This document shows, in pieces, positions 463 to 48,232 of a stretch of 64,000 bases of DNA. This DNA is from Arcobacter sp. (GTDB lineage: Bacteria; Acidobacteriota; Terriglobia; Bryobacterales; Bryobacteraceae). Both the position numbers and the translations under genes were made by a program. The DNA lies in contig DYJN01000004.1 of the NCBI GenBank assembly GCA_020723085.1, positions 1 to 64,000 of the forward strand. Direction: 5' to 3'. The notes beneath the pieces were generated by a model that did not search any database, had not been told where the DNA came from, and worked only from the letters and a program-made list of their open reading frames with translations. Every line of letters starts with the position of its first letter. The first letter of the stretch is position 1.

Positions 463-1905
463 ATGACTAAAGCGTGCGGCGCCGGCTGCCGATGGAGGAG
501 TGTGGCCCGCCCGGCCTTCCTGCTATTCGTGTTTGCCGCCGCCGTGCAGGGTGCGGAGATCAGCCGTCTGGAGACAGGGCTGGCCGTGGCGGCGGACGCC
601 TGTCGCCTCTCCTGTCAGGCTGCGTCGGTGCAGTCGCATGAAGCCCACATTCTGGTGCGGTTCACGGCGCGGGTAAGGGCGGACGAGTCGTTCGCGGTGG
701 AATGGGTCAGCCCGGCGGGGGCGGTCGTGGAGAGCGCCGAGTACAGGAATCTGCCGCCGGGCAAAACCGTGTGCGTGGTGAACGCGCTCCAGATCGGCGG
801 CTTCGTTCCGGCGACACAGCCCGGGCGGTGGCGCGTGCGCGTAGTGTCAGGCGGCCGCGTGGCGGGCGAACGCGAATTCGAGATTCTCGGCAAGGCGACA
901 CCCCTGGCCGTGCGGGTGTCGGCGGTGGGCCCCGGTGGTCTGATCCTCGACACGGTGGGCGCCGAGCCCGATACCACGGTCAACATTGCACGATACCGGG
1001 ACAATGCCGGTTGGGAATACGTGGCGGTGGTGCTCCCCTCGCAGCGGGAGGGCGACCGGCTGCGTGCGGATCCCGGGCCGCTCGCGCCGGGCGAGTATCT
1101 TGTGATTCTGCGCAACCCGAACGGCGACGAAAGCCCGCCGGCGCGCTTCGTCGTGGCTTCCGCGGAGACCTACCGCAAGCCGTTCCCCGAGGGGCAGGCG
1201 TGGCGCGTGACGCAGCGGCCCTATGGCGCCTTCTCGCATTACGGACGGGCGCTCCATGCCTGGGACTTCGCACCCACGGAGGGCCGCTATGTGACGGCCA
1301 TGCGGGGGGGCGTGGTGCTGGCGCGCGATCTCCGGCTGGGCCAGACGCCGAACCGGCGCCTGTTTGGCAACTACATCACCATCGACCACGGCGATGGAAC
1401 CTTCGCTCATTACGCACACCTGAAAACCGGATCCTTCCGCGTGCGCACGGGGCAGCGGGTCGAGGCGGGGCAGATTCTGGCCGAGGCAGGCAACAGCGGC
1501 TATTCTTTCGGCCGTCATGTGCACGTGCACGTTACGAGGGCGCCGCCGATCGCCGCGCCGAGCATCCCATTCCGGTTCCAGGACGGCGCCTCGGGGCCGG
1601 TGGTGGCTTCGGCGGCGCCATCCCGGCGGCGGTGGGAGGGCGCCGCCGCCTTCGCGCAATGGTGGACGCGGCCGATCCGGGTGCCAGGCAACGCCAAGAA
1701 GCTGGCCGTGCGGCTGGAGTACGGCGGTTCCGGCGCCGAACTGGACCTGTGGCTGGTGAGCCCTGAAGGCAGATGGATTCGGGCCGGCGGGGCGAGAGCC
1801 GAAGTGGCCCGCCCGCAGCCGGGCATTTGGCGCGTAGCGGTGCAGAGCGTCCGCGGGGAGGGCTCGTTCCGGGTGGAGCCGGAAATCACACTATCCAGTC
1901 CATGA
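463..1905 (+). CDS. Secreted M23-family (LytM-type) metallopeptidase
   Basis: A 480-residue exported protein with an N-terminal hydrophobic signal segment (about residues 13-31, likely cleavage after VQGAE). Two beta-rich regions (about 35-235) of unknown type follow, then an M23 zinc peptidase domain at about 245-365. Visible metal-site elements are H259/H265 and D268 in the SHYGRALHAWDF stretch, the HYAH segment at 316-319 and the HVHVHV segment at 352-357. The family cleaves peptide cross-links of peptidoglycan or acts as a scaffold for other hydrolases. The C-terminal 100 residues look like a second beta domain of the P/CBM type. No Shine-Dalgarno sequence precedes ATG 463, so the exact start is uncertain. 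Confidence 0.8.
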   Translation: MTKACGAGCRWRSVARPAFLLFVFAAAVQGAEISRLETGLAVAADACRLSCQAASVQSHEAHILVRFTARVRADESFAVEWVSPAGAVVESAEYRNLPPGKTVCVVNALQIGGFVPATQPGRWRVRVVSGGRVAGEREFEILGKATPLAVRVSAVGPGGLILDTVGAEPDTTVNIARYRDNAGWEYVAVVLPSQREGDRLRADPGPLAPGEYLVILRNPNGDESPPARFVVASAETYRKPFPEGQAWRVTQRPYGAFSHYGRALHAWDFAPTEGRYVTAMRGGVVLARDLRLGQTPNRRLFGNYITIDHGDGTFAHYAHLKTGSFRVRTGQRVEAGQILAEAGNSGYSFGRHVHVHVTRAPPIAAPSIPFRFQDGASGPVVASAAPSRRRWEGAAAFAQWWTRPIRVPGNAKKLAVRLEYGGSGAELDLWLVSPEGRWIRAGGARAEVARPQPGIWRVAVQSVRGEGSFRVEPEITLSSP

Positions 1906-1942
1906 TTCGGCCGCGGGGCTATACTTGTAGGCGAGGCCCCAT

Positions 1943-2389
1943 ATGAAGACCTACCTGCGATTCGGCATCCTCGTGGCGGCGGTTCTCGGCACGCTGGCAT
2001 GGCTGGCGGCGAGCGGCATCCGCGAATCGAAGACGTATTACAAGACGATCTCCGAGCTGAAGTCCATGCCGCAATCGGAGGCGGGCAAGCGGGTTCGGGT
2101 GACGGGCGACGTGGTGGCGGGATCCATCCGGCGCGAGGGAACGGCCGTGCATTTCCAGATCTGCGAGAAGGAACGCGGTTCCACGCTGAATGTCGTGTAC
2201 ACGGGGAAAGATCCGCTGCCGGACACCTTCCGCGCCGAGGCGCAGGCGATGGCGGACGGCAAGATGGCCCCGGACGGGACGTTCCACGCCAGTTCGATCG
2301 CCGCCAAATGCCCGTCGAAGTATGAAGCCGCGCCCGGGAAAGCTGCGCCTCAGCCGCTGAACCCCGGCCCCTCGCGGTCCTCTCTGTAG
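1943..2389 (+). CDS. ccmE: CcmE, cysteine-type (CXXXY) periplasmic heme chaperone
   Basis: A 148-residue protein with one N-terminal membrane anchor (about 5-24) and an OB-fold domain, the layout of CcmE, which carries heme from CcmABCD to the CcmF lyase on the periplasmic side. Classical CcmE binds heme covalently through His in HXXXY; here the site reads C123-P-S-K-Y127, the cysteine variant known from Desulfovibrio and some archaea. It is the first gene of the ccm operon, and ccmF follows after about 30 bp. A TATACT hexamer at 1920-1925 could be a -10 element, but I see no convincing -35. The tail after residue 130 is Pro/Ala-rich. Confidence 0.88.
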   Translation: MKTYLRFGILVAAVLGTLAWLAASGIRESKTYYKTISELKSMPQSEAGKRVRVTGDVVAGSIRREGTAVHFQICEKERGSTLNVVYTGKDPLPDTFRAEAQAMADGKMAPDGTFHASSIAAKCPSKYEAAPGKAAPQPLNPGPSRSSL

Positions 2390-2420
2390 TGCGGTCCCAA
2401 TCCACGTTCGGAGCGGAATC

Positions 2421-4436
2421 ATGGAGACTCTCGGCGCATACAGTCTGCTGCTGGCGCTTTGCCTGGCGGCATATGCCCTGCTGGCTTCCGTCATCGGCGG
2501 CTGGAAGAACAAGCCCTTCCTCGTAGAGAGCGCGCGGCGCGCCGTCTACGGCGTATTTCTGACGCTGACGGCGGCATCGGCCATTCTGGTGTACGCGCTG
2601 ATGACGAGCGATTTCCGGTTCGCCTATGTGGCGGAGCGCTCCAACCGCGCCATGCCTGCCTTGTACAAATTCGCCGCGTGGTGGGGCGGGCAGGAGGGGT
2701 CGCTCCTGCTGTGGAGCTGGATGCTGTCGCTGTACTCATCCATCGTCGTCTGGACCAACCGCGCAAAGCACCGGAATCTGATGCCGTGGGTGATGGCCGT
2801 GCTCGCCTTCACGCAGACGTTCTTCTGTCTGCTGAATGTGTTTGTCGAGCCGCCGTTCCAGATGCTGGCGGTGGGGCGCGGCGTGACTTCGGTGCCCGAC
2901 GGCAACGGTCTGAATCCGCTGTTGCAGTACCCGATGATGGCGATTCACCCGCCGGCTCTGTACCTCGGCTTCGTGGGGTTTGTGGTCCCCTTCGCCTTCG
3001 CGTTCGCCTCGCTGCTGAAACGCGAGCCGGGCGAGGGCTGGATCGCCACCACGCGCAGGTGGTCGCTGGTGACGTGGGGCTTTCTCTCCATCGGCATCAT
3101 GCTTGGGCAGGCGTGGGCGTACGCGGTGCTGGGCTGGGGCGGCTACTGGGGATGGGATCCGGTGGAAAACGCTTCGCTGCTGCCCTGGATCACGGGTACG
3201 GCCTTCCTGCATTCGGTGATGATGCAGGAGAAAAAAGGCATGATGAAAGTCTGGAATATGGTGCTGATTTCAGCCACCTATTTCCTCTGCATCTTCGGCA
3301 CTTTTCTCACGCGCAGCGGCATCGTCTCGAGCGTCCACGCCTTCGCGCAGTCCTCGCTGGGTTCCTGGTTCGTGGGCTTCCTGGCCATCAGCATCTCGGT
3401 TACCGTGTTCCTGATCCTGCGGCGCCTGGATTACCTGAAGAGCGAGTCGCACCTGGAAAGCGTGCTGAGCCGCGAGTCGAGCTTCCTGTTCAACAACCTC
3501 CTGCTGCTGGCTTCCTGCTTCGCCGTGCTGTGGGGGACGCTGTTCCCCGTGCTGACGGAGGCGGCGATGGGGGAAAAGATCACCGTGGGCGCGCCGTTTT
3601 TCAACAAGGTGAACATTCCGATCGGGTTGGCGCTGCTGCTGCTCACCGGAGTGGGGCCGCTGATTGCGTGGAGGCGCAGCTCGTGGGAGAGCCTGAAGCG
3701 CGCCTTCCGCTGGCCGGTGCTGGCGATGGGCGTGGCCGTCGCCGCGCTGCTCGCTTTCGGGGTGCGGCATTTCTACGCGCTGGTGAGCCTCGGGCTGTGC
3801 GCCTTTGTCGCCGCGACCGTCGTGATGGAGTTCTACAAAGGGGCGCGGTCCATCGCCGTCCGGAACCAGATGAACATCCTCCGCGCCACCGTTGAGCTGA
3901 CGCACCGCAATACCCGGCGCTATGGCGGCTATCTGGTCCACACGGGCATCGTGCTGATGTTCATCGGCTACACCGGCTCGGCGTTCAACAAAGACACGAC
4001 CGAGGAAGTGAAGATCGGCTCGCATTTCACCATCGGAAGCTACCAGTTGCAGATCAAGGAGGTGACCGACGGTTCGAACCCGAACTATTCCTGGCAGCGC
4101 GCCGTCATCGCCGTGCACTGCAATGGCCGGTATCTGGGCGATCTGAAACCCGAGCGGCGCGTCTATGCAGCCTCGCAGCAGCCTACTTCGGAAGTGGCCA
4201 TCCGCAGGCGGCTCAACGAGGACCTGTATCTGAATTTCGCCAGCATGAGCCAGTCGGACCCGGAGGCGGCCATCATTCAGGCATATGTCTTTCCGCTGGT
4301 GAGCTGGATCTGGATCGGCTTCTACGTGCTGCTGTTCGGCACCGTCGTCTGCCTGATCCCGAGCAAAGTGAAATATGCTTATCCGAAGACGCAGGTGGTG
4401 GGCGTGTATGAACGCCAGGCTGAGCCGGCGCAGTGA
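2421..4436 (+). CDS. ccmF: CcmF, cytochrome c heme lyase subunit
   Basis: A 671-residue polytopic membrane protein of the heme-handling CcmF/CcmC/CcsA superfamily, the usual length for CcmF. It contains the tryptophan-rich WWD motif (WGGYWGWDPVENASLLPW, about residues 238-255), which presents heme at the periplasmic face. Conserved histidines stand in AIHPPALYLG, FLHSVMM, SSVHAFAQS and GGYLVHTG. CcmF takes heme from holo-CcmE and ligates it to CXXCH motifs of apocytochromes. In the classical system it works with CcmH, but no ccmH lies in this operon, as expected for a system with cysteine-type CcmE. Confidence 0.95.
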   Translation: METLGAYSLLLALCLAAYALLASVIGGWKNKPFLVESARRAVYGVFLTLTAASAILVYALMTSDFRFAYVAERSNRAMPALYKFAAWWGGQEGSLLLWSWMLSLYSSIVVWTNRAKHRNLMPWVMAVLAFTQTFFCLLNVFVEPPFQMLAVGRGVTSVPDGNGLNPLLQYPMMAIHPPALYLGFVGFVVPFAFAFASLLKREPGEGWIATTRRWSLVTWGFLSIGIMLGQAWAYAVLGWGGYWGWDPVENASLLPWITGTAFLHSVMMQEKKGMMKVWNMVLISATYFLCIFGTFLTRSGIVSSVHAFAQSSLGSWFVGFLAISISVTVFLILRRLDYLKSESHLESVLSRESSFLFNNLLLLASCFAVLWGTLFPVLTEAAMGEKITVGAPFFNKVNIPIGLALLLLTGVGPLIAWRRSSWESLKRAFRWPVLAMGVAVAALLAFGVRHFYALVSLGLCAFVAATVVMEFYKGARSIAVRNQMNILRATVELTHRNTRRYGGYLVHTGIVLMFIGYTGSAFNKDTTEEVKIGSHFTIGSYQLQIKEVTDGSNPNYSWQRAVIAVHCNGRYLGDLKPERRVYAASQQPTSEVAIRRRLNEDLYLNFASMSQSDPEAAIIQAYVFPLVSWIWIGFYVLLFGTVVCLIPSKVKYAYPKTQVVGVYERQAEPAQ

Positions 4437-24522: not shown

Positions 24523-25596
24523 TCAGGCCGCGGCGGGGGCGGGTGCGCGTTTCAGGAGCGCGCCGGCGATCTCGTCGAGCGGAAGCACCTGCTGGACGGC
24601 TCCCAGGCGGACCGCCTCACGGGGCATGCCATAGACGACGCAGGTGTCTTCGTTTTGGGCGATGGTGCCGGCGCCGGCGCGGCGCATCTCGAGCAGGCCC
24701 GCGGCGCCGTCGGCTCCCATGCCGGTGAGCAGGACGCCGATCGCGTGCGAGCCGGCTTCGCGGGCGACGCTGCGGAACAGGACGTCGACCGAAGGCCGCT
24801 GATAGCAGACTTTGGGGCCGTCGTGGAGCCGCGTGCGCCAGCCGCCGCCGCCGATGCGCTCAATCTCCAGGTGGCGGTTTCCGGGCGCGACCACGGCCAT
24901 GCCGCAGGACAGGATTTCTCCGCCCGCGGCTTCCCTGACCTCAAGGGCGCAGATCTTGTTCAGCCGCTGGGCGAAAGTGGCGGAGAAGCCCGGGGGAATG
25001 TGCTGGGCGACCACGATGGGGGGCATCGACGCGGGCAGATTTTCCAGCACGCGCTCGATGGCGACCGTGCCGCCGGTGGACGCGCCGATGGCGATCAGAT
25101 GCTGGGCCGGCTGGCCGTTTTTGACAGCCGGCGCCGATGGCGCCACGGGCGCGGGTGTCCGCGGAGCGGGTGGCGGCGCGGCGGCGCGCAGCCTGGCTGC
25201 GGCGGCGGCGCGCACGCGCTGCGGCAGGTCGTCCTTCAGATCCGCGACCGAGTACGGCCCGCCGGGCTTGGCGAGCACGTCCACCGCGCCCCGGCTGAGG
25301 GCCTCCAGCGCGGCGCGGGTCGAGTTCTGCGTGAGCGAACTGACCACGATCACCGGCAGCGGATAGTGCTTCATGAGCTTCTCGAGGAAGGTCAGCCCGT
25401 CCATGCGGGGCATCTCGACGTCGAGCGTGAGCACGTCGGGCCTCAGCGCGACGATCTTGTCCCGCGCCACGAAGGCGTCCGGCGCCGTGCCGGCGACTTC
25501 GATGTCGGGCTGCTGGCTCAGGATGTCGGTCAGGACTTTCCGGACGATGGCCGAATCGTCGACCACGAGGACCCGGATTTTCCGTGCAGCGGTCAT
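24523..25596 (-). CDS. cheB: CheB, protein-glutamate methylesterase
   Basis: A 357-residue protein starting at ATG 25596, which overlaps the cheX stop. The receiver domain has VVDDS and phospho-acceptor D59 (LTLDVEMPRMDG). The linker is Ala/Pro-rich (about 130-158). The C-terminal methylesterase has catalytic Ser in GASTGG, His in VAQHIPPGFS and Asp in LLTGMGADGA. CheB removes methyl groups from (or deamidates) chemoreceptors, opposing CheR. It is the last gene of the chemosensory operon. All catalytic residues are present. Confidence 0.94.
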   Translation of the reverse strand: MTAARKIRVLVVDDSAIVRKVLTDILSQQPDIEVAGTAPDAFVARDKIVALRPDVLTLDVEMPRMDGLTFLEKLMKHYPLPVIVVSSLTQNSTRAALEALSRGAVDVLAKPGGPYSVADLKDDLPQRVRAAAAARLRAAAPPPAPRTPAPVAPSAPAVKNGQPAQHLIAIGASTGGTVAIERVLENLPASMPPIVVAQHIPPGFSATFAQRLNKICALEVREAAGGEILSCGMAVVAPGNRHLEIERIGGGGWRTRLHDGPKVCYQRPSVDVLFRSVAREAGSHAIGVLLTGMGADGAAGLLEMRRAGAGTIAQNEDTCVVYGMPREAVRLGAVQQVLPLDEIAGALLKRAPAPAAA

Positions 25597-26054
25597 TGCA
25601 CCTCCTCGCTGATAAGAGTCACCGCCACCTCGCCCGCAGCGAGGGGAAAGCGCAGCCAGCGGCGGCCCTCGCAGGGCGGCATGCCGCGGCTCGCCTCCGG
25701 CGGCGCAATCCGCAGGCGCCCGTGCGGCTCCAGCCGGCTCAACGTGGCGCCGCAGAGCATGTTGGCCAGCTCGGACGCCATCAGCAGCACCTCCTGACCG
25801 CCCACCTGCTCCTCTTCCAGCCCCAGAAACGCCGCCGCCAGACGCCGCGGCGCCTCGCCTGCCAGCGCCACGTGCAGCACCCCTCGCAGGCTGCCCTCGA
25901 AGCGCGCCGAAGCGCGCAGGTCGGCTCCAGCCGGCGCGGGGCCCGCTTCCGGCTCGGCGGCGGGAAACTCGAAGCACATCGTCTCCAGCACTTCCAGCAC
26001 CGCCTCCTCCAGCGCCTGCCGGACTTCGGCGCTTTGCTGCTTCGTCTCTTCCAT
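25593..26054 (-). CDS. CheX/CheC-like phosphatase-domain protein
   Basis: A 153-residue protein between cheY and cheB. The stretch VGGQEVLLMASELANMLCGATLSRLEP (about residues 82-108) carries the E-x2-N pattern of the CheX/CheC/FliY phosphatase fold, where Glu and Asn remove phosphate from CheY. Upstream is a helical segment with several glutamates (EEAVLEVLETMCFEF) and then a beta region. It has one copy of the motif, as in CheX. Its product would reset the neighbouring CheY. Start and stop sit within 4 bp of the neighbours, so it is translationally coupled to cheB. Confidence 0.7.
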   Translation of the reverse strand: MEETKQQSAEVRQALEEAVLEVLETMCFEFPAAEPEAGPAPAGADLRASARFEGSLRGVLHVALAGEAPRRLAAAFLGLEEEQVGGQEVLLMASELANMLCGATLSRLEPHGRLRIAPPEASRGMPPCEGRRWLRFPLAAGEVAVTLISEEVQ

Positions 26055-26056
26055 AG

Positions 26057-26473
26057 TCAGAAACCCTCCTCCGCCGGCGGCGCGCCGCCGGGCAGAAGCC
26101 CGCCGAGCACTTCGCTCAGCCGCTCCGGCGGGAACGGCTTGCGCACATAGTCGCTGGCTCCGAGCCGCAGCAGCGCGCCGACGCGGTTCTCAGTCGAGTC
26201 GGTGGAGACGACGACGACCGGAATCGAACGCAGACCGGGGTCGGCCTTCAGTTCGCCGATGAGCTGTTCGCCGTCCATGACAGGCATGTTGATGTCGGTG
26301 AGGATCAGGTCCACGGCGGGCGAAGCCGGCGAGCCGCGCAGCTTGTCAAGCGCCTCCCGGCCGTTGGAGGCTTCCAGGATCTCCGACGTCTGGAACCCGG
26401 CCAGGGCGATGGTCCGTTTCACAAAGGCCCGCATCACGGGCGAATCATCCACAATCATGAGGCGGCTCGGCAC
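26057..26473 (-). CDS. cheY: CheY-like single-domain response regulator
   Basis: A 138-residue receiver starting at GTG 26473; a near-perfect AAGGAGGT precedes it by five to six bases, which decides the start over internal ATGs. Phospho-acceptor is D60 (LILTDINMPVMDG), with D9/D10 in VDDS, Thr/Ser in VVVSTDS and Lys in VRKPFPPE. There is no output domain, so it probably conveys the CheA signal to an effector by protein contact. It overlaps cheD by 19 bp. Because no flagellar gene is near, the effector could be a type IV pilus motor or something else. Confidence 0.88.
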   Translation of the reverse strand: MPSRLMIVDDSPVMRAFVKRTIALAGFQTSEILEASNGREALDKLRGSPASPAVDLILTDINMPVMDGEQLIGELKADPGLRSIPVVVVSTDSTENRVGALLRLGASDYVRKPFPPERLSEVLGGLLPGGAPPAEEGF

Positions 26474-26994
26474 TCCGCACCTCCTTCCGGCACCGCGGCC
26501 GGCTTGCCGGCCCTCAATTCCCGCACCACGCCCGACGGCTCGCTCACCGTGCACCGGCCCGTCTCCACATCCAGGCGCACCGTGCGCGACACCGATCCCC
26601 CGACCTCCTCTCCATGAACCAGCACGCCCGCCTTCCACAGGATCTTGCGCACCGCGGCATGGTTGCGGCGGCCGATGTTGAACACGCCGCCGCTGTCGAC
26701 CACGTTGGCCCCTCCGGCCAGCCGCACCTGCAGCCGGCGCTTCTCGGCGCCTTTCTCATAGGCCAGCCGGAACAGCAGCGGCGTGCCGGTGTCAGCGTAG
26801 CGGAAGGGGTTTGCGCGCCCTTGCGTCGCGCGGTCCACCGAACTGTCGGGCAGCATGAAGTGCAGCAGCCCGCCCACCTTCACGACCGGATCCCAGATCG
26901 CCACGGCGATGCACGAGCCCAGCGCGAAGGTCACCAGCTCTACCGGCTCCGCCGCCACTTTGCAGTCTCCAATGCCCACCACCAGCGTCCTCAC
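26455..26994 (-). CDS. cheD: CheD, chemoreceptor glutamine deamidase
   Basis: A 179-residue protein with the CheD active-site layout: T22 and C28 in VTFALGSCIAVAIWD and H45 in GGLLHFMLPDS, the Cys-His-Thr set used to deamidate receptor glutamines. A RLAGGANVVDSGGVFNIGRRN stretch follows, as in the family. CheD can also bind the CheY phosphatase (CheC) and is here encoded two genes from a CheX-like protein. The C-terminal 25 residues after SGVVREL are an Ala-rich extension. Start overlaps the cheR stop by 4 bp. Confidence 0.92.
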   Translation of the reverse strand: MRTLVVGIGDCKVAAEPVELVTFALGSCIAVAIWDPVVKVGGLLHFMLPDSSVDRATQGRANPFRYADTGTPLLFRLAYEKGAEKRRLQVRLAGGANVVDSGGVFNIGRRNHAAVRKILWKAGVLVHGEEVGGSVSRTVRLDVETGRCTVSEPSGVVRELRAGKPAAVPEGGAECRAAS

Positions 26995-27833
26995 ACGCTC
27001 CTCCCGCCGCCCAGGGCGGATCTCGACGGCTTGCGGTACACGGCCGGCTTCACGTAGTCCAGCTCATGCCGCACGCCCATCAGCCCTTCGCTGTGGCCGA
27101 TCAGGAACCACCCTCCCGGCTCGAGCCGGTCCGTGAAGCGCGCCACCAGCCGCTCCTGCGTCGGCTTGTCGAAATAGATCATGACGTTCCGGCAGAAGAT
27201 CACACGGAAGCGCGGCAGATGCGAGAAGTCCTGCATCAGGTTCAGCCGCCGGAACTCGACGCGCGCGCGCCATTCCCGCTTTACCCGCACGCTGCCCTCC
27301 CACCGGCCCTCGCCCTTCTGGAAAAACCGCTGCGCCCAGCCGGGCGGCAGCCCCTCCAGGCGCTCCCGCGGATAGATGCCCGCCTTCGCCGTGTCCAGCA
27401 CCCGCGTCGAGATGTCGGTCGCCAGCAGCTCGAGCGCGCCGATCCGCTCCGCGCCGAGCACGTCAGCCGCCGTGAACAGGATCGTGTACGGCTCCTCGCC
27501 CGTCGAGCAGCCCGCGCTCCAGATCCGGACCCCGCCCCGCCCGCGCAGCGGCGGCAACACCGTCTCGCGCAGCAGAGCGAAATGCTGCGGCTCGCGCAGG
27601 AAGCTCGTGTGGTTCGTCGTCAGCGCGTTGATCAACCGCTCGAGCTCCTCGCCCGTCCGGTCCGCCTTCACCGCCTCGACATACTCCGAAAGGCTGCCCA
27701 GCCCGAGTTCCTGCACCCGCCGCGCCAGCCGCGCGTTGACCAGCGCCTCCTTGCCCGGGCGCAGGTCCAGCCCGAAGCTGCGGTAGGCCAGCTCCCGGAT
27801 CTCCCGGAATTCTTTCTCGGTCAGCCCCTGCAT
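26991..27833 (-). CDS. cheR: CheR, chemoreceptor glutamate methyltransferase
   Basis: A 280-residue SAM-dependent methyltransferase. The N-terminal helical domain (LTEKEFREIRELAYRSFGLDLRPGKEALVNARLARRVQ) is followed by NHTSFLREPQHFALLRE, the SAM-binding region IWSAGCSTGEEPYTI, and FCRNVMIYFDKPTQERLVARF near residue 215. It methylates receptor glutamates and tunes MCP signalling, with CheB in opposition. No C-terminal TPR or chemoreceptor-binding pentapeptide domain is fused. It lies 27 bp after cheA. Confidence 0.95.
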   Translation of the reverse strand: MQGLTEKEFREIRELAYRSFGLDLRPGKEALVNARLARRVQELGLGSLSEYVEAVKADRTGEELERLINALTTNHTSFLREPQHFALLRETVLPPLRGRGGVRIWSAGCSTGEEPYTILFTAADVLGAERIGALELLATDISTRVLDTAKAGIYPRERLEGLPPGWAQRFFQKGEGRWEGSVRVKREWRARVEFRRLNLMQDFSHLPRFRVIFCRNVMIYFDKPTQERLVARFTDRLEPGGWFLIGHSEGLMGVRHELDYVKPAVYRKPSRSALGGGRSV

Positions 27834-27860
27834 CTTGCCTTCCTTCCGCCCTCTCCGCGC

Positions 27861-29675
27861 TCAGCTCCGCAGCACCGCCCCGGCCTCGCCCGCGATCGCC
27901 GCCAGGTCGAGGATCAGGCCCACGCGCCCGTCGCCCAGAATGGCTCCGCCGGCGAAGCCGCGCGCGTCGCGGAAGGCCGGACCCAGGCTCTTGATCACCA
28001 CCTCCTGCTTGCCCGCGAGCTCGTCCACCAGCAGGCAGAACACGCGGCTGCCGCTTTCGCCGACGATCATCAGCCCCTGGCAGGGATCTTCGCTGCGCGG
28101 CGCCACGCCCAGTCTCGCCGCCAGCCGCACCAGCGGCAGGAGCCGCCCGCGCACCATCACCATCTCTCCCTTGCCTTCCACCGTGAAGACCTGCTCCGGC
28201 GACGCCTTGAACATCTCCCGCACGGCGAAGATCGGCACGATGAACCGTTCGCCGCCCACCGACACGATCAGCCCGTCAATGATGGCCAGCGTCAGGGGCA
28301 CCTTCAACAGGAACGTCGTGCCGGCTCCCGAAGAGCTGACGATCTCGATCCGGCCGCGCAGCTTGTTGATGTGCTTCCGCACCACGTCCATGCCCACGCC
28401 GCGGCCGCTGACATCGGTCACCTGTTCGGCCGTCGAGAAGCCGGGTTCGAAGATCAGATGGAACGCCTCCGTGTCGCCCAGCTTGGCGTCGGCCGGGATC
28501 AGGCCGCGCTCCACCGCCTTGCGGATGATCTTGTCCCGGTTCAGTCCGCGGCCGTCGTCGCCGATCTCGATGACGATCATGCCCGCCTGATGGGACGCCG
28601 CCAGCCGGATGCGCCCGGCGGCCGGCTTGCCCTTCGCCTCGCGCTCGGCCGGCATCTCCAGCCCGTGATCCATGCTGTTGCGCAGCATGTGCACCAGCGG
28701 ATCGTGCAGCTCCTCGACGATCGTCCGGTCCAGCTCGACGTCCTCGCCCTGCAGCTCGAGCTCGGCCAGCTTGCCGGACTTGCGGGCCAGGTCCCGCACG
28801 AGCCGCGTCATGCGCCGGAACAGTTGCCCGATCGGCACCATGCGCATGGCCATCGCCGTCTTCTGCACCTCGCCGGTGACGCGCGTCAAATGGGCGATGT
28901 CGCGCTGGAGCTTCGGCGAGCGGACCTGCGCGAACTCCGGGTTGTGCCGCAGCATGGTCTGCGCGATCACCAGCTCGCCCACCATGTCGACCAGGTATTC
29001 CAGCTTCGACGTGTCCACCTTCACGAGCGCCGCATCGGCGCCGCCCCGGCTTCCGCTCCTCTCCGCCGGCGCCGCCGCCTCCGGAGGGGCCGCTTCAGCC
29101 TGCGGCGCGGCCTTTTCGGGTTCGGCCGGTTCGCCTTCCGCGGCCGCCTGCACGCGCGCGATCAGCGCATCGGGCTCGGGCGGCGGCTGCGCGGGGCGGC
29201 CTGCCGCCGCGGCCTCGATCGCATTCAGCCACGTCCGCAGATAGTCGCCCGCGGACAGCACCACGTCCACCGTCGCCGGCCGCATGACGAGCTTGCCGTT
29301 GCGCGCCAGATCGAGCAGCGTCTCGGTCTCGTGCGCCACGCGCTGCATGACCGTGTAATCCAGGAAGCCGGCCAGGCCCTTGATCGTGTGGAAGCTGCGG
29401 AAGGCCGCGTGCAGCGTCTCCTGCGAGTGCACGCCCTGCTCGATCTCCAGCAGGCAGGCCTCGATCTGCGCCAGGTGCTCGCGCGCTTCCACCAGGAAGT
29501 CCTGCACGAGCTCCGGATCCTGCGCCAGCGGATTGGCCGCCGCCGCGGCCGAGTCCATGCTCTCGGCCAGCGCCCGCAGCCCTTCGGCCGCGTCCGGCCG
29601 CGCAGAGGCGGCGTCCTCCAGGCGGTCCGGCCCGGCCGCCGGGCCGGATTCTTGGTTGAGCTTGTCCTCAGACAT
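27861..29675 (-). CDS. cheA: CheA histidine kinase lacking a P2 domain
   Basis: A 604-residue kinase. The P1 phosphotransfer domain has H96 in AFRSFHTIKGLAGFL. An Ala/Pro/Glu-rich linker (about 175-210) stands where the CheY-binding P2 domain is usually found. P3 dimerisation helices follow (LEYLVDMVGELVIAQTML), then the P4 ATPase with N-box EELHDPLVHMLRNSMDHGLE and GDDGRGLN, ATP-lid text TDVSGRGVGMDVV, and a CheW-like P5 (about 470-600). Without P2, phosphotransfer to CheY or CheB would depend on direct P1 contact. It is third in the operon after cheW and the MCP. Confidence 0.92.
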   Translation of the reverse strand: MSEDKLNQESGPAAGPDRLEDAASARPDAAEGLRALAESMDSAAAAANPLAQDPELVQDFLVEAREHLAQIEACLLEIEQGVHSQETLHAAFRSFHTIKGLAGFLDYTVMQRVAHETETLLDLARNGKLVMRPATVDVVLSAGDYLRTWLNAIEAAAAGRPAQPPPEPDALIARVQAAAEGEPAEPEKAAPQAEAAPPEAAAPAERSGSRGGADAALVKVDTSKLEYLVDMVGELVIAQTMLRHNPEFAQVRSPKLQRDIAHLTRVTGEVQKTAMAMRMVPIGQLFRRMTRLVRDLARKSGKLAELELQGEDVELDRTIVEELHDPLVHMLRNSMDHGLEMPAEREAKGKPAAGRIRLAASHQAGMIVIEIGDDGRGLNRDKIIRKAVERGLIPADAKLGDTEAFHLIFEPGFSTAEQVTDVSGRGVGMDVVRKHINKLRGRIEIVSSSGAGTTFLLKVPLTLAIIDGLIVSVGGERFIVPIFAVREMFKASPEQVFTVEGKGEMVMVRGRLLPLVRLAARLGVAPRSEDPCQGLMIVGESGSRVFCLLVDELAGKQEVVIKSLGPAFRDARGFAGGAILGDGRVGLILDLAAIAGEAGAVLRS

Positions 29676-29720
29676 GGTTCTTCGCCCAGTGCCACCGGTT
29701 CGGTCTCGGGCCTCCGGCCC

Positions 29721-31295
29721 TCAGAAGTCGCGGAATCCGTCCTCGAGCGGAATTTCGTTTCGCGCCGAAGTCCGGACGCCCGCGGGCGCCGCCGTCTGCG
29801 CGCGCCGGGGCGGGCGTGGCGCGGCAGCGCCTCCCGCCGGGCCGCGTTCGAAGTCTTCGTCCGCTCCCGCCAGCTCCCGCAGCCGCTCGACGGCCGCCTC
29901 GAGGGCCTGCGCCTGCGCCGTCATCTCCTCGCCCGCCGAGGCGCTCTGTTCGGCGCTGGCGGCCGTCGACTGCGTCACCTGCTGCATCTGCGCCACGGCG
30001 CGCGCGATCTGCTCGATGCCGCGGGCCTGCTCCTGGCTGCCCATGTGCACTTCGCTCGACAGCACGCGGATGCGCGAAGCGTTCTCGAACACGCGCGTGA
30101 TGCAGGCCGCCACTTCGTCCAGCCGCACCTTGCCCTCGTTGGACCGCACGATCGACTCCTCGATCAGGTCCGATGTGTCCTTGGCCGCCTGCGCGGCGCG
30201 CTGCGCGAGATTGCGGACCTCGTCGGCCACCACCGCAAAGCCCATGCCCGCCTCGCCCGCGCGCGCCGCCTCCACGGCCGCGTTCAGCGCCAGGATGTTG
30301 GTCTGGAAGGCGATCTCGTCGATCACCCGGATGATGCGGCTGATCTTCTCGCTCGAAGCGTTGATCTCCTTCATCGACTCGAGCATCTCGCCGAGCTTCT
30401 CGTTGGTCTCCTTGAGCAGCTGATCGGCCTTCTCGGTCTCGCCCGCTGCCAACGAGGCGTTCTCGGCGTTCTTCTGCGTCATCGAGTTCAGCTCTTCGGT
30501 CGACGCCGAGGTCTGCTCGAGCGACGCCGCCTGCTCGCTGGATCCCTGCGCCAGCGCCTGCGAACTGCTCGACACCTGCGCCGCCGCGCCGGCCACCTGC
30601 CGCGCCCCGTCGGCGATCTCGGCGGCGATGCGCTTCAGCGTCCGGTCGGCCCCCCGCATCACCCAGATCGCCGCGCCCGCCACCGCCGCGGCGACGATCA
30701 CGCCGATCACCAGCAGAATGATGGACAGCCTGGACCGGAAGTTGGCCGCCGCGGCCGACTCGTCGAGCAGGCGCCGCTGCAGCGCCGCCATCGCCGCCGC
30801 ATCCTTCTGCGCCCGCTCCATCACCGGACCGATCGCCGCCGCCTGCAGCCTGGTCGCCTCGTCGAAGCGCTGTTCCCGGATGTGCGCGTCGAAGACGGGC
30901 GCCAGGCGCGACCATTCCTCCAGGTCCGCTTTGAGGCTCGCCTCGATCCGCCTGCCCTCGCCCGACCACAACAGCGGATCGATCGCCGCCACGGCTTCGC
31001 CCGCCGCGCGCTGCGCCTGCGCCGCCTTGCGCTGCGATTTCTGCAACAGCGGGGCGTCGCCGGTCATCGCCCCCAGCAGCATGCCCCGCAGCGCGCCCTC
31101 AGCCGCCGCGATGTTCCTCTCGATTACGAGGGCGTTCTGCACCTTCCGCCCCTCCCTGTTCACGGTCTGGCCGACCAGCCCGCTCAGCATCGAAGCGCTG
31201 TAGATGCCCCCGGCGCCGACCAGCAGCAGGAACCCTCCGGTCAGGCCCAGGCTCAGATACATCTTGCTGCCCAAGTTCCGTTTCGAAAACGACAT
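29721..31295 (-). CDS. Methyl-accepting chemotaxis protein
   Basis: A 524-residue receptor starting at ATG 31295 behind GGAAGGAAG (an in-frame TTG seven codons upstream is less likely). TM1 is at about 12-38. A helical periplasmic region of about 140 residues follows, probably of the four-helix-bundle type. TM2 is near 180-205. I see no clear HAMP. The long cytoplasmic coiled coil has the hairpin tip [40 protein letters not shown]. The C-terminus is Arg/Pro-rich and ends EDGFRDF, with no NWETF-type tether. It is encoded next to cheW and cheA and is the likely input of this system. Confidence 0.92.
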
Positions 31296-31351
31296 TGCTT
31301 GCTTCCTTCCTTGCAAATGCTGGAATTCGTCCGATCCGCCCGGCGCCGCTT

Positions 31352-31918
31352 CTACGCTTCCGCCGGAGCCTCTTCGCCCAACGGCAGCAGTTCGAGCCCG
31401 CCGAGCTCCTGCGCCGTCATCACCTCGTCAATGTCGAGCAGGATCTTCACCCGCCCCTTCACCTTCGCCATGCCGAGGATGTAAGGCAGGCGCACGTCCT
31501 CGCCGAACGACGGCGTGTCCTCGATCTCCTGCTCCTGGATGGTGAGCACCTCGCTGACGCCGTCGACGACGACGCCCATCAGCAGCGGATCGCCCGACCC
31601 GCTGCGGCGCCGCACCTGAAGGACGATGATGCAGGTGCGGGAGGTCTGCTCCCCGTCCGGCATGCCGAACTTGCGCCGCAGATCCACCACCGGGATCACC
31701 TTGCCGCGCAGGTTGATGACCCCCCGCACGTAATGGGGCGTCTGCGGCACCTCGGTGATCTCCTGCAGCCCCATGATCTCGCGCACCTTCAGCACGGCCA
31801 CGGCGAACTCCTCGCGGCCAAGGTGGAAGACGAGATACTTGCCCTGGCGGCCCTCGGCCGTCCGGCCCTGCTTGCTCACAGCGCTCTGCACGCCCATACG
31901 TCCCGCTTTCCTCGCCAT
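31352..31918 (-). CDS. cheW: CheW, chemoreceptor-kinase coupling protein
   Basis: About 188 residues from ATG 31918; a later ATG at 31897 (MGVQSAV) is also possible and has GAGGA 11 bases upstream. Two linked beta subdomains of CheW are visible: [52 protein letters not shown], then [21 protein letters not shown] and [11 protein letters not shown]. It links MCP and CheA in the array. It is the first gene of the eight-gene operon, which is transcribed away from the peroxiredoxin gene; both promoters must lie in the 150 bp between them. Confidence 0.92.
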
Positions 31919-32068
31919 CGGCGGCCGCGCTCCGGGATGCGAGCATCCGCGGGGCGCGGCTCTCACCGCTCATATCGGATTGCGAGGGATCAATCGCAGG
32001 AAAAGTTCGGGCCCGTGATATGCTTGACGGCAGTCCGCGGTCCTCGCGGATGCCGCGAAGGAGGCTCG

Positions 32069-32596
32069 ATGCGTTCCGGGATTCTCACCGCCATGCTCGC
32101 CGCGCTGGCCTTCGGCCAAGCGGCCGCCCCGCCGGAAACCCATCTGAAGCCCGGCGGCGAGGCGCCGGACTTCCGTCTGAGCACCACCGGCGGCACGGAG
32201 TTCCACCTGGCCGCTCTCCGCGGCAGGACCGTCGTGGTAGCCTTTTTCCCGGCCGCCTTCACCGGCGGTTGAACGAAGGAGATGACGGCGTACCAGGCTG
32301 GTATCGCGGAATTCCAAAAGACCGGCGCCGCTGTGGTCGGCGTCAGCACGGATAACCTGCCCTCCCTGCGCCACTGGGCGCAGGAGGTCCTCAAACTCGG
32401 CTTCCCGCTGGCCAGCGACTTCGCCCGCCGCGAGGTGGCGCGCGCTTACGGGGTGCTGAACGAGGCGAGCGGCGTCGCCAACCGCACGACTTTCGTCATC
32501 GGGCCTGACGGCCGCATCCTGCACATTGACGAGGGCCCGGCTGCGCTCGATCCCGAAGGCGCGCTCGCCGTCTGCCGCCGGACGAAGAGGCCATAA
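32069..32596 (+). CDS. Selenocysteine-containing peroxiredoxin (AhpC/TSA type, in-frame TGA read as Sec)
   Basis: Read through the TGA at 32270-32272, this is one 175-residue protein. It has a strong GAAGGAGG ribosome binding site, a signal peptide (LTAMLAALAFGQAAA) and a thioredoxin-fold peroxiredoxin domain. Upstream of the TGA is VVVAFFPAAFTGG and downstream is TKEMTAYQAGIAEFQK, in the same frame. The TGA (position 68) is exactly the peroxidatic cysteine of the P-x3-T-x2-C motif. The active-site Arg is probably that in NRTTFVIGPDGRI, and C169 could be a resolving residue. Sec at this site is known in some bacterial peroxiredoxins. A frame-internal hairpin with GG loop (32288-32307) fits a bacterial SECIS. 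The alternatives, a pseudogene or sequencing error, are less likely because the only defect is at the redox residue. Role: reduction of peroxides, probably in the periplasm. Confidence 0.85.
32288..32307 (+). promoter_or_regulatory. Candidate bacterial SECIS element
   Basis: GCG (32288-32290 region) pairs with CGC at 32305-32307, a single bulged U is at 32304, and UACCA (32291-32295) pairs with UGGUA (32299-32303), leaving a GGC apical loop. The two loop guanines are about 24 nt after the TGA. This fits the known bacterial SECIS rule of a short stem with G in the first loop positions, 16-37 nt from the UGA. SelB would bind it to deliver Sec-tRNA. The fold is hand-made and not energy-tested. 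Confidence 0.6.
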
Positions 32597-47970: not shown

Positions 47971-48064
<94 letters not shown>

Positions 48065-48232
48065 GCGAAGTGCGTGGTCATTCGCATCTTACCATACGCG
48101 GCGCGTGCGGCAGGCGTTCTGGCGCAGGTGGTGGCGCTGGCTCGGAGAGCGGGAGTCCGGCATGGCGAGGAGTGTCTCGGCGACCGAAAAGGCGCGGCTG
48201 GCAGAGGCACGGGGCAGCTTCACAGGCGCCGT

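Follow-up and report, generated by a model that had tools for sequence, protein, structure and literature searches.

A probable selenocysteine peroxiredoxin gene with an in-frame TGA at the peroxidatic position in a Bryobacteraceae genome, as read from comparative sequence analysis

The window analysed here, a single stretch of 64,000 nucleotides, carries a peroxiredoxin gene whose reading frame contains one TGA codon at the position of the peroxidatic cysteine. Judged from sequence comparison, we consider it about 93% probable that this gene encodes a selenoprotein peroxiredoxin of the AhpC/TSA family, probably exported, in which UGA 32270 would be decoded as selenocysteine (Sec) by tRNA-Sec and SelB recruited by a SECIS hairpin. 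What looks like a pseudogene would thereby become the gene of a catalytic selenoenzyme, and gene callers without Sec handling are expected to truncate such genes. Sec peroxiredoxins with a TxxU motif are an already established selenoprotein family. The features discussed below are compiled in Table 1.

Table 1. Coordinates of the features (positions in the window unless a contig is named)
Feature	Position	Strand	Remarks
Ribosome binding site GGAGG	32060..32064	+	4 bases 5' of ATG 32069; read directly
Probable selenocysteine peroxiredoxin gene	32069..32596	+	175 residues, Sec = residue 68, TAA stop
Hydrophobic N-terminus MRSGILTAMLAALAFGQAAA, probable export signal	32069..32128	+	crude hydropathy rule; low model confidence
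TGA probably read as Sec, peroxidatic position (PxxxTxxU)	32270..32272	+	frame and homologue comparison
Bacterial SECIS stem-loop UACC-AGGCU-GGUA	32291..32303	+	+21..+33 from U of UGA = 0
Codon of Cys169, probable resolving residue	32573..32575	+	only Cys besides residue 68
Neighbouring chemotaxis genes	24523-31966	-	CheW, MCP by Pfam
selB, frame-split	contig C72 (L230), about 841-2677	-	match in two frames
selD with one in-frame TGA	contig C3:26081-26986 (L061)	-	KLTARVKAAG-U-ASK, near N-terminus

On the plus strand, positions 32069-32596 form a single peroxiredoxin frame of 175 residues, which runs from ATG 32069 to the TAA at 32594-32596 and whose sole internal stop is the TGA at residue 68, in the context PAAFTGG-U-TKEM. 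With C put for U, the Pfam profile AhpC-TSA (PF00578) gives one match over residues 29-152 (120.5 bits vs. a cut-off of 26, E 5e-35); since this single match extends over both halves, there is no frameshift. The peroxidatic motif PxxxTxxC/U is present, and the TGA falls in the column where homologues have their invariant peroxidatic Cys. In a 14-row alignment P61, C/U68 and R139 are invariant, and T65 is either T or S. An earlier note on this DNA had described two stretches in the same frame, separated by a TGA exactly at the peroxidatic cysteine and free of any frameshift, as parts of one peroxiredoxin, a description that is borne out by the 175-residue frame, the single profile match and the alignment; the AAGGAG that it saw directly abutting ATG 32282 is present as well. 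Between the window and four relatives of the same genus, dN/dS amounts to 0.09-0.18 after the TGA and to 0.10-0.53 before it, with the comparison kept to the genus and values outside it set aside because of unaligned length differences. These ratios indicate that the part of the peroxiredoxin downstream of the TGA is under purifying selection within the genus.

A family-wide search covered 237 genomes from 76 genera, and the comparison set drawn from it consists of the best 150 listed homologues rather than all members. Three genes (L010, L011 and L012, identical to L104, L085 and L141, respectively) were left out, and the remaining 150 are all distinct. At the peroxidatic site, the best 150 listed genes carry TGA in 122 cases, TGC in 27 and TGT in one, and their frames stay open for at least 66 residues before and at least 103 residues after this codon. 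The 122 TGA genes of this set come from 120 genomes. In the four nearest relatives, which belong to the same genus and are 82-84% identical, the TGA is kept throughout and no further stop is found; the peroxiredoxin gene of L009 is identical to that of G142, a genome of the same genus as the window. Weaker members were examined in 37 further, selected genomes of the family, and 29 of these proved to have a TGA locus; four of the loci (L206-L209) are partial matches, two of which (L206, L209) apparently leave the frame upstream or downstream of the active site. In total, the TGA form occurs in at least 151 of the 237 genomes of the family. It also extends beyond the family: in a class-level draw of 299 genomes, some of them already seen, 100 give a match at E 1e-30 and the genomes with TGA copies include some from other families and orders, and among 16 class-level loci that were read, 13 show TGA (16 copies, as three loci hold two) and three show Cys. 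In each of the loci with two copies (L240, L244, L247), the additional TGA copy has diverged further and is found on the stretch that also carries the first; at least one such copy, in L240, lacks the tail Cys but retains the SECIS stem. Two homologues (G416:C56:127796-128257 and G361:C1:4694581-4695069) contain a TAG in addition to the TGA and are perhaps decaying copies.

The SECIS hairpin begins 18 bases 3' of the UGA. A published bSECIS model, in the part of PMC13188914 that was accessible, specifies a loop of 3-9 nt, an upper stem of 4-16 bp, a distance of 16-37 nt from the UGA, an MFE of -7.5 or lower and a G in the first two loop positions within the pattern N1-G-[G/U]-N-N2. The window hairpin agrees with this model in its stem (UACC/GGUA), its loop (A-GGC-U, with N1-N2 = A-U), its UGA-to-loop spacing of 22 nt and its MFE of -12.6 kcal/mol, calculated for a 51-mer, the latter two being inside the limits. 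Taken alone, it reaches a z of -1.56 and is equalled in folding by 11 of 200 shuffles; as the fold is thus only mildly better than the shuffles, the evidence for the SECIS is comparative. None of the 153 distinct TGA sequences has lost any of the three inner pairs, whereas these are intact in only 3 of 31 Cys ones; the counts exclude three rows of distant Cys paralogues. Compensatory double changes are found among the 153 (A-U to U-A in 16, C-G to U-A in 16). The paired cells amount to 97.4%, compared with 20-66% when the 3' side is slid by 1-3 columns and a maximum of 92.0% over 500 shuffles. The four-pair stem is formed in 102 of 118 distinct family sequences, whereas none of 200 synonymous recodings gives it in more than 17, and the outermost of the four pairs (21-33) is open in 16 of the 153 TGA sequences. 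Codons 7-10 after the UGA are near-fixed in the TGA genes as TAC CAG G/TCT GGT, wobble bases included. In the best-150 set, CAG occurs in 118 of 122 TGA genes vs. 15 of 28 Cys genes and GGT in 114 of 122 vs. 3 of 28. From these sequence patterns we conclude that the hairpin is under selection and goes together with the UGA.

The source genome (4.19 Mb in 181 contigs, rated 100% complete, with the window in contig C23) possesses a tRNA-Sec (74 bits; called tRNA-SeC with anticodon TCA by ARAGORN), selA (490 bits, positions 1-453), selD (357 bits) and selB, the last as two matches of 306 bits (positions 1-334) and 32 bits (464-578) in different frames. The tRNA-Sec, selA, selD and the first part of selB all score above their cut-offs. 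Hence, the search for selA, selB, selC and selD proposed in the earlier note recovered every one of them, selB being frame-split in the source assembly. The selD frame has one in-frame TGA, in what we take to be the known Sec/Cys site of SelD, and selenophosphate synthetase is thus likely to be the genome's second selenoprotein. Within the window, a candidate at 47973-48066 on the minus strand that reaches the cut-off of the tRNA-Sec model with 47 bits was rejected, being a tRNA-Ser (GCT) according to ARAGORN. As a tRNA-Ser attains this score, counts of tRNA-Sec that rely on the cut-off alone should be treated with caution.

Across the family, the TGA form co-occurs with Sec genes. The best-150 set comprises 120 genomes with a TGA copy and 23 that initially showed Cys only; two of the latter (G086, G149) hold a weaker TGA copy together with the machinery, and the Cys-only genomes thus number at most 21. 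Using a selB search that scored up to 5 candidates per genome and a tRNA-Sec search with stricter filters, we found tRNA-Sec or selB in 118 of the 120 TGA genomes; single-genome selB status was read from E-values, which gives 186 positives vs. 187 in the tally. The two exceptions, G053 and G073 (79 and 80% complete), contain selA instead, which in G073 is split into two fragments, each at a contig end and each below the cut-off. The follow-up added 29 TGA genomes, 28 of them with tRNA-Sec or selB. The remaining one, G090 (99% complete, 7% contamination), yielded no tRNA-Sec and no selB above cut-off, and has selA only, above its cut-off. With G086 and G149 included, all 151 TGA-bearing genomes of the family accordingly show one or more of the three genes (tRNA-Sec, selB, selA), if only as a trace. 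In six genomes (G046, G070, G128, G131, G155, G193), no tRNA-Sec, no selA and, as read from the E-values, no selB above the cut-off was found; only Cys copies were fetched from them, and five of the six are at least 91% complete.

Several other explanations for the TGA were weighed. The Cys codons (TGC or TGT) in 28 of the 150 best-listed homologues would be expected if the TGA were a nonsense mutation in a decaying Cys gene or a sequencing error in a misread one. That the same TGA recurs in 122 of the 150 and in other families of the class, that long open frames with low dN/dS in the genus follow it and that the hairpin is under selection render this explanation all but untenable, and sequencing error in particular does not explain 122 TGA genes from 120 genomes. 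Here, two suggestions of the earlier note apply: alignment with cysteine homologues places Cys codons at the TGA column in those 28 members, and the close relatives, inspected for further disabling mutations, have none among the four nearest. A reassignment or general suppression of TGA in the source genome, e.g. as Trp, would also yield a full-length product, as would any readthrough. We regard it as hardly credible, because TGA is the closing stop in 14 of the 122 TGA-bearing homologues, including L031 of the same genus, because the codon aligns with Cys and not with Trp, and because the genome contains a tRNA-Sec with anticodon TCA along with selA and selD. Very improbable, too, is the production of two proteins, a short one ending at the TGA and another made by reinitiation at ATG 32282. 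The AAGGAG abutting this ATG might serve such a start, but it is at the same time a K-E codon pair; Met is present at this position in only 70 of the 122 TGA homologues, with L, I, F or V in most others, the conserved P61 and Arg139 would end up on separate products, and the SECIS hairpin would be left without a role.

The split selB bears on a different question, namely whether the source strain itself still inserts Sec. If the break were real, the strain could not decode UGA, and a family of true selenoproteins would be represented here by a truncated product only. In four genomes of the same genus selB is unbroken, each time in an open frame of 646 residues, and compared with these genes the source selB has a 2-base gap. 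This gap, however, lies in a G-rich run, about 1.6 kb from the contig end in a gene that comes within about 0.85 kb of that end; no further gap is reported within the aligned gene, and both parts are conserved. Moreover, neither the peroxiredoxin of the window and its hairpin nor selA, selD or tRNA-Sec shows signs of damage. With the remaining machinery apparently intact and a lone gap in a G-rich run, an assembly error is the simpler account; the frame split is probably of this kind, and a loss of Sec insertion in the source strain is improbable. The selenocysteine peroxiredoxin proposed in the earlier note is thus supported, as two of the three outcomes it had named as speaking against such a protein, missing sel genes and disabled relatives, were looked for and neither occurred.

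The hydrophobic N-terminus of the window protein points to export. By the same crude hydropathy rule, a signal-peptide-like N-terminus is present in 132 of the 150 best-listed members, that of the window included, and in 109 of the 122 TGA ones, where start codons were set by a simple rule and some may be wrong. RR within the first six residues, found in 29 of the 150, would fit Tat export in some members. AlphaFold predicts the fold of a peroxiredoxin with confidence (mean pLDDT 86.1; residues 1-4 and 6-17 below 50, active-site block 64), and the structures nearest to this model are Prx1, Bcp and AhpE chains. A second conserved Cys, as in a 2-Cys-type peroxiredoxin, is present: Cys169 is situated in the last helix of the model (163-172), a C.R motif occurs within the last 25 residues of all 150 best-listed members, and the tail Cys is the only Cys besides Sec in 95 of the 122 TGA members. 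On these sequence grounds Cys169 is likely the resolving partner, and attack by Sec68 followed by resolution through Cys169 is the likeliest chemistry. Once the UGA has been decoded, the Sec selenolate would reduce peroxide and be converted to the selenenic acid, which Cys169 of the C-terminal helix, from the same or the partner subunit, would resolve as a selenylsulfide; an extracytoplasmic thiol reductant would then recycle the enzyme.

No gene for such a redox partner was recognised beside the peroxiredoxin in 21 regions, i.e. the window and 20 regions of about 10 kb, in which we considered ORFs of at least 90 aa passing a filter on GC by codon position. The three widest-shared clusters were discarded, as the first (24 of 25) and the third (8 of 8) consist of the peroxiredoxin frame or of frames antisense to it and the placed members of the second overlap the peroxiredoxin. 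Chemotaxis genes are common to 5 of the 21 regions (the window and, with part of its set, 4 of 20 relatives); in the window, CheA-, CheR-, CheD-, CheY- and CheB-like ORFs were additionally noted by eye at 24523-31966 on the minus strand. A protein of ~1100 residues follows 3' of the peroxiredoxin on the same strand after a short gap in 4 of the 21 regions (L258, L262, L263, L267), and that of L258 contains Pfam Rce1-like (CAAX protease) and DUF4901 matches. Neither the chemotaxis genes nor the CAAX-protease-like protein is a known reductant.

A quick tree of the best 150 proteins and two outgroup rows requires no fewer than 13 exchanges between Sec and Cys (parsimony minimum). Only the catalytic column was masked for this tree, and sequences may therefore group partly by the codons that the SECIS constrains. 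When the two Cys outgroups serve as the root, the tree yields 3 gains and 11 losses of Sec at equal cost and 17 gains and 4 losses when a loss costs double, i.e. the direction of change depends on the costs. Five genomes contain both Sec and Cys forms, with two more in the class-level draw, and in G060 (L079) and G123 (L109) the TGA copy and the Cys copy adjoin. We see an even chance that the Acidobacteriota proteins form a class-wide, exported Sec-peroxiredoxin branch acting as an extracytoplasmic Sec/C-terminal-Cys (selenylsulfide) peroxidase, in which Sec would be the old state, often exchanged for Cys with loss of the SECIS. If true, the branch would offer a naturally replicated experiment on the retention of selenium. 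With many Sec and Cys versions at hand, some adjacent in one genome, the question of Sec retention at a peroxidatic site can be tested on close natural pairs.

The Sec peroxiredoxin family appears in the accessible parts of PMC13188914, PMC9312934, PMC5029168, PMC1794560 and PMC1088965. In these parts, 12 members are given in a 2006 table (PMC1794560), 43 genes are counted in the Sargasso Sea set, a survey reports 91 in 78 organisms (PMC5029168), and the TxxU family is included in a 2026 listing (PMC13188914). The earlier note was therefore right that bacterial Sec peroxiredoxins are known, and its "few" understates their number. For Acidobacteria, a passage of PMC1794560 counts 3 selenoprotein families with 4 selenoproteins, the families not being named in that passage, and the available text of PMC12013277 gives 3 known selenoprotein genes for Occallatibacter riparius. 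With Acidobacteria selenoproteins on record, we make no claim that a member has never been catalogued. A literature search lying mostly outside subscription journals and preprints returned, in the text it covered, no description of the Bryobacteraceae peroxiredoxin, nor of a probably exported branch with a C-terminal Cys and its clade-wide spread.

None of the NCBIfam models scored the window protein above its cut-off. For thiol peroxidase Prx-SUH (NF045827), likewise a peroxiredoxin-like selenoprotein family, the score is 34.9 bits vs. a cut-off of 298, and its motif is CxxU, not TxxU, according to the accessible part of PMC13188914. AhpE of Mycobacterium tuberculosis (1xxu, 4x0x, 5id2) is among the nearest sequences (E about 1e-18), and its folds are among the nearest to the window model (TM 0.77-0.80 by query length). 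Both proteins share AFTG-x-C and V-[LF]-NE-x-x-G-[VI]-ANR-x-TFV; AhpE, however, is a Cys enzyme, 1-Cys by its entry title, and the alignment stops at residue 150, before the C-terminal Cys of the window protein. In PrxQ, the usual resolving Cys resides in helices 2 or 3, whereas the only other Cys of the window protein is in the last helix. Among Bcp/PrxQ-like proteins (2ywn, 3hjp), 2ywn is the best sequence match (E 1e-19) and has an AFT-x-x-CTKEM active site. The Sec peroxiredoxin family of PrxU from Eubacterium acidaminophilum (COG1225/PF00578) shares the replacement of the peroxidatic Cys by Sec in PxxxTxxU and is likewise bacterial, of the AhpC/TSA type, with a SECIS just after the UGA. 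Since the score of the window protein against NCBIfam peroxi_PrxU (NF040737), 66.2 bits, is below the cut-off of 270, we file it as a Sec peroxiredoxin and not as a PrxU equivalog; unlike PrxU, it has a C-terminal Cys and, probably, an export signal.
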